A DNA stretch of 34,714 nt from Saprospiraceae bacterium (GTDB lineage Bacteria > Bacteroidota > Bacteroidia > Chitinophagales > Saprospiraceae), in NCBI GenBank assembly GCA_026989035.1, contig JALSKB010000004.1, positions 1-34,714 of the forward strand, read 5' to 3'. Positions 1-25,035 of this stretch are shown here, one piece after another (position 1 is the first letter of the stretch; each line of letters starts with the position of its first letter). The notes beneath the pieces were generated by a model that was not told the origin of the DNA, searched no databases, and was given only the letters and a program-made list of their open reading frames with translations. Position numbers and translations under genes: made by a program.

Positions 1-118
1 GTCTTGTATCTCCTTGCACTTCAACGAAAAACTCGGGCTTGAATCAACACCATGCTCGGCCTGTGTGTTGTTTTATCAACTGCTTGAAAGGCAGTATTGT
101 AACCAGAAATCGAAACCC

Positions 119-3100
119 ATGACAGTACGCTACTTTTTTTTCCTTCTCTTTGTCGCTTTCAGCACTTCTGTTTTTGCTCAAAAGCCTAATTGCGATTCTT
201 ATGTTGAAGATAGTAAAACGCTAAGGGGCATTCGCTATGTAGAGATGAACCCGCAAATCATTGTGCTGCGGGGTAGTTACAGCTACAGCATGAAGCTGTT
301 TACCGATGATCACGGCATACAGGCGCGCTTGTATTCCAAAGGAGGGGAACGTTTAAGGCAAAACAATGAAGTCATTTTTGTAGATATTCTCGGTGTTCGT
401 CGTCGCTATCGCTTTGTAGAAGCAGAAATCAGTTCTACGGAGAGCGGGCAACCGGTACATGAAAACGTTCTGCGTTTGGATTTTTCCGCTGTAGAATGGA
501 TGGCCGGTACGAAGTTGGCCACGATTTATTTGGTCAACAAGAGCGCTAATCAAATGAAAAAATTTAGCATCAACCCCAGTCGCCAAGAGGGCTTGTTGAA
601 TATGGCTTCTTGTTTCCTCTCCATCATTGACCCGGGTACTACGGCTTCCTCCCAGGCTTCTGTGGTGACAGAGGAGACTACTCCTTCGCGGCAAAGCGTT
701 TCCCGCATTTACGACAGAGATGTCATGAGCGATGATGAATTGGAACAGCTGCGCCGCGATTTGGAAGTGCTAAAAGAAAATTTGCGACAGCAAATCGAGT
801 CGGAGAAAGCGCAGGCGGAACATCAAATAGCTGCATACCGGGAGGAGGTGCGTCGGGCCAGGGAAGAAGCGGAAGCCAGTAAAAAACGCTATGCCGATGA
901 AGTGCAGGAGGCGCGTAAAGCTTCCCAAAATAAAATTGAACAAATCGAAGAAGAAACCAGGCGCCGTGTACAGGAAGCCAAATCCAGTGCAGAAAGCGAA
1001 ATAGAGCAAATCCACGCCCGCGTTTACGAGGCCCGCGAAAAAGCGGCAGAAGAAATTAAGCGAGCCCGAGAAGATGCCGCCACCGAAGTTGCTAAGGCTC
1101 GCGAAGAGGCTTCTCAGGAGTTGGCTGAAATCAATAAGCGTTTGGAACAGGCCCGATTGGAGTATCAGGATGAGATTGACAACATGCGTCTTGCTACCCA
1201 ACAGGATATTGAGAAAATTAGAGCACAAGAGGCTGAAGCCATAGCCAAAGCTCGCCGAGAGGCCGAAACCAAGCGCGAAATTACCATAGAAGAATTACAA
1301 CTGACCAAGGAACAAGCAGCACAGGAACGTCTGCGCATTCAAGAAGAATTGGCCCGAGATATTGCTCAAATGAAGGAGCGGATTGCTTTGGAAAAGGAAA
1401 AGTTAAACAAAGAAATCGTCGCAGCACGTCAGCGGGCTGCGGAGGAAAAAGCACTGGCAGAACAAGATTTAGCCAAAAGGCTGGCAGAAATGCGCGAACA
1501 AGCAGCTCAGGAAAAAGAAAGCCTGGCTCTGGATGTGGCGCAAGCTCGTGAACGTGCCGTCAAGGAAAAGGCCGCTATCGATAAGCAAATCGTCGAAATG
1601 AAACAGGAAGGAGAGGCGCAGAAGAAAGCCATACAGGACGATTTGGCCAGAGAATTGGCAGAAATGAAAGCCCAGGCCGAGCAGGAAAAAGCTCGTATGG
1701 CAGAAGAAATAGCCCAAGCCAGGGAACGTGCTGCTTTGGAATTGAACGAAATTGCTGCGGAAGAAAACCGCATTGTCGAAGAGACACGGCAAAAAGCTGA
1801 AGAAGAAAAACGGCGCATTGCAGAGGCCGTACAGAAAGTTCGTGAACGGGCCGAACGCGAAATCCAACGGATTCAGGCAGAGAAAGAAGAGGCTATAGCC
1901 GCCGCTGAAGCGGAAAAGCAAAAAGTCTTGCAGGAGAATGCCCAAACTGTGGCTGAAGCGCGTTCAAGGGCCGAGGCGGAAGTTCGCAAGGCCAAAGAAG
2001 AAGCTGCCCGACGTGTACAGGAAGTCAATCAACAGGCTGAAGCAGCCCGCCAAGACTATGCCAATGAAATCCAACAGCAAAAAAGTGCCGCTCAACAGCG
2101 TTTGGATGAAATAGAACAGGAAAAACAAGCTGCCATTGCCCAAGCTCAACAAGAAATTCTGAATATGAAGCAGTTGACTGAGGAAGAAATGCGCTCGGCT
2201 ATGGAAGAACAGGCACAGGCCATCCTGGCTGCCCGCAAAAAAGCTGCTGAAGAAATTGCCAAAGCTCGGGAAACAGCTGTTCGCAAACAACAGGAATACG
2301 CCGATCAAGTTTCGGAAGAGAAAAAGCGAGCGGCAGAAAACATTGCAGCCATTCGCAGTGAAGAGGCACAGGCCATTCAACAGGCTCGCCAAGAAGCTGC
2401 TGAGGAAAAACAACAACTGGCTGCTCAAGTGGCCGAAGCCCGTGAAAAGGCTGCTAAACAATTGGCCGAGTTGGATGCGCAATTGGCCGAGGAGATGCGT
2501 CAAAAACGCGAGCAAGTTACGCGTGAAAAAGAGCAACTGGACATCGACTTGCTCAATGCCCGCAGCCTGGCTGCCGATAGCATTGCAGCTGCTAAACAAA
2601 GGGCTGCCCGTGAAATAGCTACAGCCCGCAAAAAAGCTGCCGAAGAAGTGGCTCTGGCTAAGGAACAATTGGAAAACCTGAGACAAGACCTGGCTAAACA
2701 AAAAGCTGCCGAAGAGCAAAAAGCTGCTGAAGAACTAAGTGCCCTGCGCCAACAAATAGAGGAAAAGAAACGCAAGTTGCAAACCGAACTGGAAAGTGTG
2801 CAGCAGGATGGTTCTATCCAAATAGAAATTGCCCGAAAACAGGCCGCTGAAGAAATTGCTGCAGCTCGTCGAGAAGCCCAGGAAAAGAAAGAGCAATATG
2901 CCCGTGAAGTTCAAGACGCTCGAGAACGAGCTAATGAAGAACTGGCCGCCATACAGCGACAAAATTCCGATGCCATCTATCAGGCTAAGCAAGAAGCAGC
3001 AGAGCAATTGAGAAAGGTGAAAGAAGATACGCAGAGGGAAATTCAGGCAGAGTTGGAACGCCTTCGTCAGCTCAAAGAAGAGGTTGCCAGACTTGAGAAG

Positions 3101-3130
3101 AAAAAGAAAGAAATGGAAGGCAACAAATAA
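119..3130 (+). CDS. Secreted giant coiled-coil protein (1003 aa)
   Basis: No family is recognised. The start at 119 is chosen because it opens a clear signal peptide (residues 1-20, ending VFA-Q). The reading frame is open back to base 14, but that extension would bury the signal. Residues 21 to about 175 look like a small beta-rich periplasmic domain with two cysteines. A Ser/Thr-rich linker follows. From about residue 203 to the end the protein is one continuous coiled coil rich in E, A, K, Q and R. Much of the coil repeats every 11 residues in phrases like AREKAAEEIKR, AREDAATEVAK and AREEASQELAE, with stretches spaced by 18 (11+7). Hendecad spacing predicts a nearly straight rod about 100 nm long. 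No membrane anchor or sorting domain is visible. A structural role in the periplasm or envelope is inference only. A strong hairpin and the thioredoxin-like gene follow downstream. Confidence 0.85.
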   Translation: MTVRYFFFLLFVAFSTSVFAQKPNCDSYVEDSKTLRGIRYVEMNPQIIVLRGSYSYSMKLFTDDHGIQARLYSKGGERLRQNNEVIFVDILGVRRRYRFVEAEISSTESGQPVHENVLRLDFSAVEWMAGTKLATIYLVNKSANQMKKFSINPSRQEGLLNMASCFLSIIDPGTTASSQASVVTEETTPSRQSVSRIYDRDVMSDDELEQLRRDLEVLKENLRQQIESEKAQAEHQIAAYREEVRRAREEAEASKKRYADEVQEARKASQNKIEQIEEETRRRVQEAKSSAESEIEQIHARVYEAREKAAEEIKRAREDAATEVAKAREEASQELAEINKRLEQARLEYQDEIDNMRLATQQDIEKIRAQEAEAIAKARREAETKREITIEELQLTKEQAAQERLRIQEELARDIAQMKERIALEKEKLNKEIVAARQRAAEEKALAEQDLAKRLAEMREQAAQEKESLALDVAQARERAVKEKAAIDKQIVEMKQEGEAQKKAIQDDLARELAEMKAQAEQEKARMAEEIAQARERAALELNEIAAEENRIVEETRQKAEEEKRRIAEAVQKVRERAEREIQRIQAEKEEAIAAAEAEKQKVLQENAQTVAEARSRAEAEVRKAKEEAARRVQEVNQQAEAARQDYANEIQQQKSAAQQRLDEIEQEKQAAIAQAQQEILNMKQLTEEEMRSAMEEQAQAILAARKKAAEEIAKARETAVRKQQEYADQVSEEKKRAAENIAAIRSEEAQAIQQARQEAAEEKQQLAAQVAEAREKAAKQLAELDAQLAEEMRQKREQVTREKEQLDIDLLNARSLAADSIAAAKQRAAREIATARKKAAEEVALAKEQLENLRQDLAKQKAAEEQKAAEELSALRQQIEEKKRKLQTELESVQQDGSIQIEIARKQAAEEIAAARREAQEKKEQYAREVQDARERANEELAAIQRQNSDAIYQAKQEAAEQLRKVKEDTQREIQAELERLRQLKEEVARLEKKKKEMEGNK

Positions 3131-21128: not shown

Positions 21129-21232
21129 TATACTCAGGGCGAAGTGGTTTGGGAGGCGTCAGCCTCCCAAACTCCTTATCTTTCGCTGGTTTGTGAGTTG
21201 TAAATATCCCAAACCATTTTGGTTTGGGTATA
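21129..21232. repeat. 104-base structured repeat, copy B
   Basis: The ends are TATAC and GTATA. The left hairpin is GTTTGGGAGGC (21147-21157) with a perfect partner at 21162-21172 and loop GTCA. The right hairpin is CCCAAACC (21208-21215) with GGTTTGGG (21221-21228) and loop ATTTT. The left 28 bases also pair imperfectly with the right end, sharing TGGTTTGGGA, like terminal inverted repeats. Copy C aligns over the full 104 bases without gaps at about 77 percent identity (24 differences by eye). Confidence 0.75.
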
Positions 21233-21269
21233 GCACTTCAATGCCCTTTGTTTTTGCTTCTTAGCAAGC

Positions 21270-21291
21270 AAACCATTTCAGTTTGGGTATA
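21270..21291. repeat. Partial right end of the 104-base repeat
   Basis: AAACCATTTCAGTTTGGGTATA matches the right end of copy B (21211-21232) at 20 of 22 positions in the same orientation, 59 bases further on. It may be a remnant of a second insertion or a local duplication. Confidence 0.6.
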
Positions 21292-21386
21292 TGTGACCAA
21301 AAGCTCATTTGTGGTCTTTTTAAATGGTTAGGGTTTTCATAGAGCCTATTGCTTTTTCTGTATTCTCTCGCCAAAAACACAAGACC

Positions 21387-22223
21387 ATGGATGACTTTAC
21401 CAACTGGACAGCGCTTTTTTTAGAGTCTTTAAGGGCTTTTGGAGAAGAGTTCATGCGGGCTTTACCGGGCGTTTTTGGAGCCCTTCTGATTTTGCTTTTT
21501 GGATGGGGTTTGGCTAAGCTTGTCGGTTCAGCTATAAGCCGTTTGCTAAAGCTTCTTCGCTTTGACCTTTTGGGTAAGCGCATTTATTTAACGGAAATGC
21601 TTACCAAGGCCAAGATTCAGGCATCCCCAAGTTTCTTGGTAGGTCGATTCGTGTATTGGTTGTTGATTCTTCTTGTTATCATAACGGCTTCCGACACCCT
21701 GGGGTGGAGCACTTTTTCCGGTGAGATTTCCAAATTGTTGAGCTTGTTGCCCAATTTGTTTGTGGCTGCACTGTTTCTCGTGCTGGGCTTGTATATTGCC
21801 GGTTTTGTACGTGATTTTCTTTCGGGTGCTACAACTTCTCTGTCTATTGCTTCGGGTAAAATCGTTAGTCAGGGGATTTACTACCTGCTGGTAGTCATGG
21901 TAGTTTTGACAGCTCTGGATCAGGCAGGTGTGGATATTTCAGTGATTACGAGTAACCTCATGCTCATTCTTGGAGCTGTTTTGCTGTCGGCAGCACTTTC
22001 TTACGGTTTGGCTTCTCGAGATGTTCTCTCTAATATTTTGGCCGGGTATTTTGCTCGCTCGCTCTACCGAAAGGGGCAGAGGATTGAATTTCAAGGCACT
22101 CAAGGGGTGATTGTTGAAATCACTAAGGTGGCGCTCATCCTCAATACTGAGGGGGGCAGTAAAGAAGTGATTCCAACTCATCATTTGATGACGGAGCGCG
22201 TGAAAATCTTGGAGGCAGAATAG
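21387..22223 (+). CDS. MscS-like mechanosensitive channel
   Basis: The 278-residue protein has four or five transmembrane helices: about 28-48, 85-110, 115-145, 158-182 and 195-220. It carries the small-residue helix pattern seen in conserved-TM-helix MscS relatives. The MscS-type beta domain begins after SRDVLSNILAGYFARSLYRKGQRIEFQGTQGVIVEI, which resembles the pore exit and the start of the beta domain. The region after it is short (about 40 residues, ending MTERVKILEAE), so the large C-terminal vestibule is absent. The start at 21387 is preferred to 21324. It probably releases solutes under osmotic down-shock. Confidence 0.82.
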   Translation: MDDFTNWTALFLESLRAFGEEFMRALPGVFGALLILLFGWGLAKLVGSAISRLLKLLRFDLLGKRIYLTEMLTKAKIQASPSFLVGRFVYWLLILLVIITASDTLGWSTFSGEISKLLSLLPNLFVAALFLVLGLYIAGFVRDFLSGATTSLSIASGKIVSQGIYYLLVVMVVLTALDQAGVDISVITSNLMLILGAVLLSAALSYGLASRDVLSNILAGYFARSLYRKGQRIEFQGTQGVIVEITKVALILNTEGGSKEVIPTHHLMTERVKILEAE

Positions 22224-22294
22224 GCTTTGTGAACTGATTTTGCAACACCCCTCTTTGGTTTTTACTTCTAAAAAACAGCAACTACTAAATCGAC

Positions 22295-23542
22295 ATGAGC
22301 ATGTACAGAGTTTTGAGCTTGGTTTTCTTTTTCGTGGCTTTTCATGCACACTTTGTTTTTTCCCAATTTGTTACTGTGGCTTACGATCATGCCCTCAATG
22401 TTTTTGGGAACTATGAGCCTTTACCTGCTGAACAGGCAATCATGTTTTCCGGCTTGGTGCCGGCTGGTATTGATATGGTTGAGGTTCTTGTTTTTTCTGA
22501 GAAAGGCGGAAAAAAGCGTAAGCCTTTGGCACAATCTTCCTGGCGCCGAGAAGTAGGTGCTGCCGGCCAAAATGCTACGACTTTTAAAATAGCGATGAAC
22601 TACCCGCTGGAAGCGGGCAAGAACTACGATTTGTACATCAATTACCTGGCATTGGTCGATTCGGAAGAGCGGGAGGAGTTGATTCGTTTGTTGATGAACA
22701 CCATGGATGCTTACTTGCGTAAAACATTTGAAATTAAAGGAAGGAAGCTGTATTTGGAGGGGAAGAGCAAGGAGATTTATAAGCAGCTGAACGAAATCGT
22801 TCACTCCGGTTTAGAAACTTATCGCTTCCCTCCCGCATTTGGGTTTAAAGGATTTTCTCCTTTGGTAGCAGAACATCTGAAAAGTCTGAATAAGGTGCAT
22901 GTGGATAATTTATCGGATATGCCCCTTTCCAGTCAGGATTCTTCTTTTGTAAAGCGAGTTCGAAAAAAGCGAGCTGCCAAGCGTCGGGCATTAGAGCTCA
23001 AGAAACGGCAGGCCAAAATAAATGCTTTAGAGGGTTTGGAGGAAGTTGTGGAGACGGAGCTTCGCCTGGCTTTGCAGGGGCCTTTTTGGCGTTTGACGGA
23101 TGTTCGTTTTTTGGATGATTATCCTACGAAAAAGCGCAAAGGCTATTTTGCCGTTCATATGGGATATGGTGCTGCACTCATAGAGAGACAGGCCGGGCGA
23201 TTGGATTATGGTTCATCGGCTTATGCCGGTTTGTCGGTACCTTTGGCTACTAGCCGCTTGGCTCCTGTTTTTTTGCGCAATGCTTCTATGACTGCCGGCT
23301 TTTTCTTTGACAATTTTACAGACGATGCGGGGCAGGTTGTTAGCGGGCCGGTTTTTCAGCGTCCACTCTATTTGGGATTGGATTACAAGTTATTCCAATT
23401 TTTCCGCATAAACCTGGGTGCGGCTTTCTTAGAGCGTCCTGTACATTCCGGAGTTCCGGCTAGTACGGAGACGGCTTTGTCGGTTAAGCCTTTTGTGGGG
23501 CTGAGCGCCAAAATCAACCTTTCTCTTTCCTTCGATGAGTAG
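22295..23542 (+). CDS. Secreted protein of unknown function, possible C-terminal barrel
   Basis: The 415-residue protein has a signal peptide of about 23 residues ending VFSQ. No family is recognised. Residues about 25-180 form a mixed domain. About 225-255 is strongly basic and helical (RVRKKRAAKRRALELKKRQ). The last 150 residues show alternating hydrophobic strands with aromatics (GYFAVHMGYGAALIE, YAGLSVPLA, GLDYKLFQFFRINLGAAFL), which resembles outer-membrane beta strands. It ends LSLSFDE rather than with the usual terminal aromatic, so an outer-membrane location is tentative. The stop is 73 bases before the next start. Confidence 0.7.
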   Translation: MSMYRVLSLVFFFVAFHAHFVFSQFVTVAYDHALNVFGNYEPLPAEQAIMFSGLVPAGIDMVEVLVFSEKGGKKRKPLAQSSWRREVGAAGQNATTFKIAMNYPLEAGKNYDLYINYLALVDSEEREELIRLLMNTMDAYLRKTFEIKGRKLYLEGKSKEIYKQLNEIVHSGLETYRFPPAFGFKGFSPLVAEHLKSLNKVHVDNLSDMPLSSQDSSFVKRVRKKRAAKRRALELKKRQAKINALEGLEEVVETELRLALQGPFWRLTDVRFLDDYPTKKRKGYFAVHMGYGAALIERQAGRLDYGSSAYAGLSVPLATSRLAPVFLRNASMTAGFFFDNFTDDAGQVVSGPVFQRPLYLGLDYKLFQFFRINLGAAFLERPVHSGVPASTETALSVKPFVGLSAKINLSLSFDE

Positions 23543-23554
23543 CTGAAAGTTGTT

Positions 23555-23562
23555 TACTTTTG
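23555..23562 (+). promoter_or_regulatory. -7 element for the acyltransferase
   Basis: TACTTTTG is an exact TAnnTTTG match 53 bases before the ATG at 23616. No clear TTTG is seen at the usual distance, so support is partial. Confidence 0.35.
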
Positions 23563-23615
23563 GGGAGTGTGTGAGGGTAGCCCGGCTGCCCTCTCGTTTA
23601 AAGCAAACTCCCCTT

Positions 23616-24572
23616 ATGGCCAGCAACCGACCTGCATACCGCATTTTGTCGGAATCGCAATATTTGCCGGTTCAGTCGCGTGCTTTTTGGTGGGATGCTA
23701 CTTGCGGAGAAGAGGGCTGGGATGCTGTTTTGTTGCCAGATAAGATAGGAGAGTGTCTTGCTGCTATGCCGTATCGCATAGAACACAAGTGGGGATTGCG
23801 CTTTTTGCGGGCTGCACCCTGGGCCACTTATGGTGGGGTTTATTTGAAGCCTCAGGCCTCCGATCGACTTTACCGGCAGCAGGCCTTTGAGCAACAGATG
23901 AGCCGTAGTTTGTTGGAGCATTTACCGGCAGCAGATGTTTTGCACTTCAATTTTCATCCTTCCTGGCGGGAGGTTTCTGCCTTTCGGCAAATGGGTGCTC
24001 ATGCTCTTTGCCGGACGACTTACGTTTTTGATGCGGGCATGGATGCAGCTGTCATTCATCGGCAGATGGCATCTTCTGTTCGCAACCATTTGCGCAAAGC
24101 CCGTCGGGAAGGTCTGTCTATTGAAGAGGGTAGGGATGCAACAGCTTTTTGCACTTTGCTGGAGCGGACTCTTGGCGGCAAAGTACTTCGGGCTGCCGGT
24201 GGCTGTGATAGCCTTGTTCGCTTGTACGCTGCCTTGTTGCAGCATCAATCGGGTTTGCTTTTAGAAGCTCGAGCCCTTTCCGGCAAGCTCCTGGCTGCTT
24301 GCCTGTTGGTTTGGGACGAGCACTGTCTGCATTTTTTACTCAGTGCTCAAAATGAAGAGGGGCGTCGCCTCAGCGCCATGTACTTGCTGATTTGGGAATC
24401 CATCAAACTGGCTGCCCGTAAAGGTCTGGCCTTTGATTTTAATGGGAGCATGCTGCCAGCTGTTGAGTCGGTTTTCCGCAGTTTTGGCGCTCGCCGACAA
24501 ACCTATGTAGAACTGCTCTGGGGCAGAAGCCTGAAGGGCCGGCTGGGCGTGGGGATGCGTTTGATGCGTTGA
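23616..24572 (+). CDS. GNAT-fold (FemAB/BioF2-like) acyltransferase
   Basis: The 318-residue protein resembles the FemAB/BioF2-like acetyltransferase group. The N-terminal half contains YGGVYLKPQ and HFNFHPSW. The middle has the diagnostic SSVRNHLRKARREGLSIEEG, typical where acyl-tRNA or acyl-CoA GNAT domains begin. The C-terminal half has KLLAACLLVWDEHCLHFLLSAQ, SAMYLLIWESIKLA and FDFNGSMLPAVESVFRSFGA, the conserved strand and turn of the fold. Such enzymes transfer amino acids or acyl groups to cell-surface molecules. The substrate is not inferable. The start at 23616 is preferred because a TACTTTTG promoter-like box at 23555-23562 sits upstream of it and inside the longer frame. Confidence 0.78.
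   Translation: MASNRPAYRILSESQYLPVQSRAFWWDATCGEEGWDAVLLPDKIGECLAAMPYRIEHKWGLRFLRAAPWATYGGVYLKPQASDRLYRQQAFEQQMSRSLLEHLPAADVLHFNFHPSWREVSAFRQMGAHALCRTTYVFDAGMDAAVIHRQMASSVRNHLRKARREGLSIEEGRDATAFCTLLERTLGGKVLRAAGGCDSLVRLYAALLQHQSGLLLEARALSGKLLAACLLVWDEHCLHFLLSAQNEEGRRLSAMYLLIWESIKLAARKGLAFDFNGSMLPAVESVFRSFGARRQTYVELLWGRSLKGRLGVGMRLMR
23979..23992. repeat. Iterated palindrome copy
   Basis: Complement of ATTTGCCGAAAGGC in the acyltransferase, read AFRQM. Confidence 0.6.
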
Positions 24573-24575
24573 TGT

Positions 24576-24588
24576 TATACTCATGGCG
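24576..24588. repeat. Stray left end of the 104-base repeat
   Basis: TATACTCATGGCG matches the left end of copy B (TATACTCAGGGCG) at 12 of 13 positions, with no hairpin following. It lies 91 bases before copy C. Confidence 0.45.
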
Positions 24589-24666
24589 TAAAAAAGTTAG
24601 GCAAGGAGCCGGCAGGAGGCTTTGTGGAACTGCGGCCTGCTGCTACTGTTGGGGTACAGGGTGTTG

Positions 24667-24770
24667 TATACTCGTGACGAAATGGTTTGGGAGGCTAATG
24701 CCTCCCAAACTCCTTATTCTCCACTTGTTAACGAGTGGGGAATATCCCCAACCACTTCGGTCTGGGTATG
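24667..24770. repeat. 104-base structured repeat, copy C
   Basis: The ends are TATAC and GTATG. The left stem GTTTGGGAGGC (24685-24695) pairs perfectly with 24700-24710, with loop TAAT. A second short stem CCACT/AGTGG (24721-24725 and 24734-24738) flanks GTTAAC. A weaker right stem is at 24746-24766. The stems are kept relative to copy B while loops differ at all four positions. GTGT occurs on both sides (beginning 24661 and 24771), possibly a target duplication or chance. Confidence 0.75.
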
Positions 24771-24828
24771 GTGTCATTAGTGGATAGCGGGTTAAAATAG
24801 AGCGCCCCCCATTGGGCCATAAGCTTTT

Positions 24829-25035
24829 TTAGGGGTCCGAAGGAGAGGTGGTTGGTCGAATGTTTACGTATCTGTTGCCGCCACGTAGGTATAGATCTCC
24901 GTTGTTTTGGCTCTTATGTCCCAACAGTTTGTGCATGTATCGCAGATCCATTCCACGCTTCGGGTGGTGCGTTGCAAACGAATGGCCGAGTGTGATTGGG
25001 CGCTGATTCTTAGCTCTAAGCCGGCCTTTTATCGC
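24829..25035 (-). pseudogene. C-terminal remnant of a XerC/D-type tyrosine recombinase
   Basis: Read on the minus strand, about 68 codons without an internal stop give HSFATHHPKRGMDLRYMHKL, then LLGHKSQNNGDLY and a tail NIRPTTSPSDP. This is the conserved end of XerC/D-like recombinases (HSFATHLLE-G-DLRYIQ-LLGHKS--T--IY, ending NIKSPLD). The sequence preceding HSFATH is ITLG where the family has roughly ITLHTLR, so the catalytic H-x-x-R segment is missing and the gene cannot be active. The later histidine and the tyrosine codon remain. The remnant begins directly after the stop codon of the Asp-box protein and in the same frame. The rest of the gene is absent. Confidence 0.75.

Follow-up and report, generated by a model that had tools for sequence, protein, structure and literature searches.

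What kind of element are two copies, B and C, of a 104-base repeat, and how did they come to stand where they do? Both are located in the window, i.e., the whole analyzed stretch of 34,714 nucleotides, which is contig C4 of a 3.12-Mb Saprospiraceae genome (G000; 215 contigs). The first-pass annotation offered three options: a non-autonomous mobile element (MITE), a REP/BIME-like element, or a dispersed structured RNA. Taken together, the results make it very probable that the repeats are non-autonomous MITEs of the IS630/Tc1-mariner type, presumably moved in trans by an IS630-family transposase.

Copies B and C in the window

A BLASTN comparison within the window aligned B and C without gaps with 80 of 104 positions identical (E 5e-19), which agrees with the identity of about 77 percent claimed for them in the first-pass annotation. 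The ends were also as described: B starts with TATAC and ends with GTATA, and C starts with TATAC and ends with GTATG. The outer arms, which had been described as imperfect terminal repeats, are about 26 bp long and match at 21 of 26 positions between the consensus ends. An 11-bp stem, GTTTGGGAGGC/GCCTCCCAAAC, is perfect in both copies, again as claimed. The 4-base loop is GTCA in B and TAAT in C; the claim that the loops differ at every position holds for the strand as read, because the hairpin of C is in the flipped orientation. Read on the opposite strand, TAAT becomes ATTA, a loop also present among the forward ones. No ORF of at least 80 aa in the window ORF list overlaps B or C. The features are listed in Table 1; the TA and TG flanks of copy C are read as the duplicated dinucleotide with one change.

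Table 1. Coordinates of the repeat features in the window.
Feature	Position	Strand	Description
MITE copy B	21129..21232	+	Core 21131-21230, duplicated TA at both flanks; full-length match, 125.5 bits
B 5' terminal inverted repeat	21129..21154	+	Terminal-repeat pattern, 1 mismatch
B central hairpin	21147..21172	.	11-bp stem, loop GTCA, common orientation
B 3' terminal inverted repeat	21207..21232	-	Terminal-repeat pattern, 1 mismatch
B 3' subterminal hairpin	21208..21228	.	CCCAAACC / GGTTTGGG
Solo 3'-end remnant	21269..21291	+	Element positions 82-104, 91% over 23 bases
Older shared repeat, insertion place of C	24575..24816	+	Starts TATACTCATGGCG; matches G030:C11:1696-1837 either side of C, 88% and 86%
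MITE copy C	24667..24770	+	Core 24669-24768, flanks TA and TG
C 5' terminal inverted repeat	24667..24692	+	B/C alignment
C central hairpin	24685..24710	.	11-bp stem, loop TAAT, classed as flipped (locus L032 1592 = window 24667)
C 3' terminal inverted repeat	24745..24770	-	B/C alignment

Two further observations concern the window itself. About 50 bases at 24817-24869 match sequences near contig starts of the genome G030 (C15:79-129 and C3:79-127; 92%), which suggests a further shared repeat. Positions 2-3130 contain a 1042-aa open frame that by eye resembles a coiled coil of great length and strong charge.

Family size, anatomy and placement

A covariance model was built from 44 copies (43 distinct; alignment A1) chosen from 54 loci, with truncated, odd or duplicate-looking loci such as L044 left out by choice. 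In the own genome, it gave at least 150 matches, all of full length and each with E ≤1.2e-14 (150 scored of 2567 candidates). The terminal-repeat pattern with at most 3 mismatches was found at 201 + 191 = 392 sites, and the reversed control pattern at 0 + 0, a difference that far exceeds chance. Since each copy has two ends, the family comprises about 200 copies in this genome, so that the search for further copies recommended in the first-pass annotation was successful. An nhmmer search of the stretches examined yielded 160 near-full-length copies after merging, or 155 without opposite-strand double hits; 109 of the 160 have the exact TATAC start and 119 the GTATA end. The mean column identity among the aligned copies (alignment A1) is 91%, and the copies appear to be young.

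The consensus begins with the 5' terminal repeat TATACTCATGGCGAAGTGGTTTGGGA and ends with a 3' terminal repeat that reads TATACCCAAACCGAAATGGTTTGGGA inward; their agreement, given above, was counted by eye on the family consensus. The interior contains the central hairpin GTTTGGGAGGC-NNNN-GCCTCCCAAAC, then a weaker middle hairpin and the 3' hairpin CCCAAACC-NNNNN-GGTTTGGG.

Placement was surveyed in ten stretches totaling 188 kb, 90% of which is covered by ORFs of at least 100 aa. Sixteen of the 20 copies located there overlap such ORFs by at most 31%, and 14 of these sixteen are free of any overlap. Four copies are overlapped by at least 65%, by open frames of 100-155 aa that may not be genes. 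At C47:4399-4710 of the same genome, three tandem copies with equal scores show a period of 104, where 102 would be expected from a shared TA.

Target site and insertion history

The first-pass annotation had recommended a search for empty sites, and one was found for copy C. The window reads GTGTTG TA (100 nt) TG GTGTCATTAG, and the homologous empty site in contig C11 of G030 reads GTGTTG TG GTGTCATTAA. The window thus has 102 extra bases, one extra dinucleotide included. This is the sole inter-genome empty site among the matches listed, and its dinucleotide is TG and not TA, so the TA target at copy C is inferred, not seen. At least two copies are nested: L008 and L005 each stand within an older copy of the family. 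L008 interrupts GAGTTG-TA-AATAT and L005 the neighboring dinucleotide. Same-strand neighbors at most 10 bp apart overlap by exactly 2 bp in 8 of 16 cases (scripted count), and the other eight junctions are at -4 (2), -3, 0, +1, +5 (2) and +6. A TA-type target with a 2-bp duplication is therefore seen at a few sites.

A genome of the same genus, G001, retains both genes that flank B, 111 bp apart vs. 340 in the window, and lacks the element: nhmmer found nothing better than E 0.27 in the syntenic contig. B provides the only clean comparison with G001, because the region of C is rearranged there. Copies in G030, a genome of another genus, reach 94% identity to B, whereas non-repeat stretches of the window are 66-81% identical to G030. 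This difference points to a recent transfer of the element between genera, with contamination of a MAG as the residual alternative.

Probable partner IS630-type transposon

An autonomous element with matching ends, another item proposed for checking, was found for a sister MITE in the genome G087. This single 7.5-Mb contig contains both 163-bp sister MITEs, four of five compared loci being 97.5-100% identical to each other, and an intact IS630-family IS. The IS is about 1.1 kb long and present in 7 full-length, near-identical copies. Its 351-aa transposase matches NCBIfam NF033545 (IS630) with 194.7 bits (cut-off 100) and Pfam DDE_3 with 104 bits; 34 residues separate the presumed second and third catalytic acids, the spacing of DD34E enzymes. 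Between the IS and the 163-bp MITE, the ends show 2-4 mismatches in 26 positions. For comparison, three further TA-ended inverted repeats next to Saprospiraceae IS630 genes, which were hand-picked and are only presumed IS ends, differ from the window MITE ends at 11-16 of 20 positions. Partly similar ends were also found in two further IS (G008 L194 and G022 L193). We regard G087 as the decisive case for the partner IS: of the genomes examined, it alone combines an intact IS with MITEs that match it, and these MITEs form a sister family to that of the window.

The own genome lacks any match to the DDE_3 profile, and tblastn revealed short transposase pieces at three places only. At C188, an open transposase N-terminus comes after the end TATACCCAAAGCGATTTGATTTGGGA and runs into a contig break. 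This IS end differs from the 5' end of the window-family MITE at 6 of 26 positions and from its 3' end at 4 of 26. It sits (C188:1-200; L238) in a gene that encodes CarboxypepD_reg and TonB Plug domains and is probably a recent insertion, judging from this context. The pieces at C179 and C46 contain stop codons, and family elements abut their broken ends. Given these pieces and the IS end at the contig break, the own genome may possess an intact copy. Matching ends also accompany a transposase piece at a contig edge in G003 and a decayed internal piece in G086. Within the decayed IS630 transposase remnant at C46 lies a nearly perfect palindrome of 29 bp that begins with TATAC and ends with GTATA (G000 C46:23692-23720; L237:1693-1721).

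All these characteristics support the MITE option of the first-pass annotation. The unit is short (104 bp), occurs in at least 150 full-length copies and carries no ORF of at least 80 aa over B or C. Its inverted ends occur at hundreds of sites where the control pattern has none. A TA target with a 2-bp duplication is indicated by the copy C empty site (TG), the nested copies L008 and L005 and half of the close junctions, and B is missing from the syntenic contig of a genome of its own genus. Ends are shared with an IS630-family IS through the sister MITE of G087 and, for the window family, through the IS end at the contig break. The element would thus be a gene-free core of about 100 bp, TAC...GTA, whose 26-bp terminal inverted repeats are imperfect and which inserts at a TA dinucleotide that becomes duplicated, as seen at a few sites. 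An IS630-family transposase, presumably binding the shared ends, would move it in trans, chiefly into intergenic DNA and probably also between Saprospiraceae genera.

Distribution in Saprospiraceae and beyond

The terminal repeat (at most 2 mismatches) was found in 17 of 120 family genomes, the own genome included, with a single site in five of them and a control count of 0. DDE_3 was detected in 34 of the 120 genomes, namely in 7 of the 17 MITE-positive and in 27 of the 103 MITE-negative ones. The idea that the presence of an IS630 transposase tracks that of the MITE was rejected: only seven genomes hold both, and mere presence is therefore not clearly associated. The end-rich genomes G086, G029, G030 and G031 gave no DDE_3 match; tblastn for the transposase found only fragments in G086 and G030 and none in G031. 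G086 (5.2 Mb, another genus) contains 95 + 96 terminal-repeat sites, several pairs of them about 103 bp apart, and represents a second large expansion.

Among named genomes, the exact terminal repeat occurs in nine stretches, eight from Saprospiraceae MAGs and one from a Bacteroidetes MAG. The same pattern was found in no stretch of the viral contigs, and a BLASTN search of plasmids and phages gave no match to copy B.

Hairpin flipping and fold-backs

The loops of the central hairpin form reverse-complement pairs: GTCA/TGAC, GTTA/TAAC, ATCA/TGAT, CTTA/TAAG, CTCA/TGAG and ATTA/TAAT. After removal of opposite-strand double hits, 144 of the 155 near-full copies had a classifiable 4-base loop. The loop is flipped in 25 of these 144; in some of them the stem is weak, with 8 or 9 of its 11 pairs formed. 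When the sequence outside the hairpin is compared, 20 of the 25 flipped copies have a non-flipped copy as their closest relative, near the 83% expected from the share of non-flipped copies.

Were the hairpins inverted repeatedly in place, or were older variants redistributed? A reading restricted to the loop flips, which we consider rather unlikely, holds that recombination between copies shuffled two old lineages of loops and that repeated in-place inversion did not occur. The copies are similar enough for recombination, which could erase tree signal, and the tree rests on only about 78 columns outside the hairpin. On this tree, loop orientation requires 24 changes, no fewer than under shuffled labels (mean 23.4; 24 or fewer in 245 of 300 shuffles). 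Among the controls, loop positions 1 and 4 show no signal (38/200 and 200/200), position 2 shows a slight one (6 vs. 6.9 changes, 10/200), and stem perfection shows some (38 vs. 44.7 changes). The tree is therefore weak. However, loop position 3 does carry signal (28 changes vs. 36.8 shuffled, 0/200), and several loop types are found in both orientations, which argues against mere shuffling. Six carrier loci in G030 also speak against it (L368, L369, L370, L372, L374 and L240; e.g., L369:281-740). All six are copies of a larger element with ends of approximately CTCAAGTTTCGG, and the same MITE occupies an identical position in each. With the flanks conserved, two have the loop GTCA and four TGAC. 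These six carriers share one insertion, and the orientation has therefore changed at least once after it. The hairpin can thus flip in place, as seen once, in G030, and replication template switching best explains such a flip. In the proposed mechanism, the internal hairpins would be DNA palindromes able to flip in place, most likely through template switching at replication.

Two kinds of structure fit the same process. Pairing extends beyond the 11-bp stem in C118, C88 and C26. At C179:4141-4202 of G000 (L236:2142-2203), a perfect 62-bp palindrome around GTCA joins the element's 5' end to an inverted copy of that end, with TATA at both ends. Fold-back mini-elements were rejected as a second multi-copy family, as one exact case was found in 7 genomes; the pattern is specific to the central hairpin of the window family, and fold-backs in sister families would escape it. 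In G029 (C590:288-341), two identical terminal repeats stand face-to-face, 2 bases apart and 54 bp in all; this is possibly a fold-back of a sister family.

Tentatively, we propose that the family may be a natural recorder of template switching, with repeated in-place flips, stem extension and occasional complete fold-back into palindromic mini-elements that have two identical, presumably transposable ends. If this is true, template switching would be a route to the birth of shorter MITEs. The greatest interest of the family lies in its flipping hairpins, and many similar hairpins in one genome offer material for measuring template switching.

RNA and REP/BIME readings

The hairpins could also have been maintained by selection on RNA folding, the repeats being a dispersed structured RNA with a regulatory or processing role. 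This is consistent with the strength of the hairpins and with the proposed structure, whose pairs are formed in 93.5% of cells (44 copies, 43 distinct). Four cells changed on both sides, a number reached by 15 of 500 shuffles, which is borderline. The other four measures were unremarkable against the shuffles, being reached by 124 of 500 (covariation score), 68 (pairs changed on both sides), 39 (cells paired) and 495 (further pair types). Compensatory changes were thus not clearly above the control, and hairpin conservation is poor evidence of RNA function here. No Rfam match was found in the window at the gathering threshold. In addition, the youth of the copies, the lineage-specific site of B and the 2-bp target duplication do not favor an RNA, and DNA template switching accounts for the flips and stem extensions. 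On the covariation counts and the Rfam result, the structured-RNA option was rejected, and we consider it extremely improbable. As hairpins may flip as DNA palindromes, their pairing need not reflect RNA function; in dispersed hairpins, it would be renewable by template switching without RNA selection.

REP/BIME elements are short palindromes linked to a RAYT gene (REP-associated Y1 tyrosine transposase). Mobilization by a RAYT would agree with the mostly intergenic placement, the many hairpins and the high copy number. However, the 104-bp length, the two terminal inverted repeats and the 2-bp TA duplication do not fit this type, as judged on anatomy only, and a DDE transposon exists with the same kind of ends. 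The REP/BIME option named in the first-pass annotation is accordingly very unlikely, and an IS630-type MITE is the reading retained.

Comparison with known elements

The excerpts of two papers on template switching (PMC8794818; PMC8604942) describe spacer inversion together with homogenization of the arms. As here, a short spacer is inverted between perfect arms, including, in PMC8604942, a 4-bp spacer between 10-bp arms. The cases in these excerpts concern rRNA genes and yeast coding genes, whereas here a single mobile family shows the inversion, in 25 of 144 copies. Judged by title, none of the literature matches listed joins MITEs, template switching and bacteria.

No earlier paper on a Saprospiraceae MITE family was found among the matches listed. 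As far as this search shows, the family is new, but of a familiar kind. It adds to Saprospiraceae a high-copy superfamily of IS630-type MITEs together with a likely partner IS type. The IS982-derived MITE of Cardinium is likewise an IS-derived MITE spreading in a Bacteroidota genome, but it belongs to another IS family and its host is an endosymbiont, according to the excerpt of PMC9769881. Further parallels, drawn by description only, are provided by RUP and the Correia elements. RUP is about 107 bp long, present in about 110 copies and hairpin-forming, with a TA-containing target and ends like those of IS630-Spn1, as described in the excerpts of PMC2229807 and PMC3049150. It thus resembles the window family in size, TA target, IS630-type ends and hairpins. 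Unlike RUP, which is found in an unrelated bacterium, the Saprospiraceae family has terminal repeats of greater length, and sister families whose ends are related occur in other genera of one bacterial family. The Correia/NEMIS elements of Neisseria (about 107 and 155 bp) have terminal inverted repeats (24 bp), TA termini and a target duplication in the excerpt of PMC2229807, and the window family is alike in size and in having such repeats, termini and a duplication. By this description, the family appears ordinary in kind and comparable to RUP and the Correia elements.
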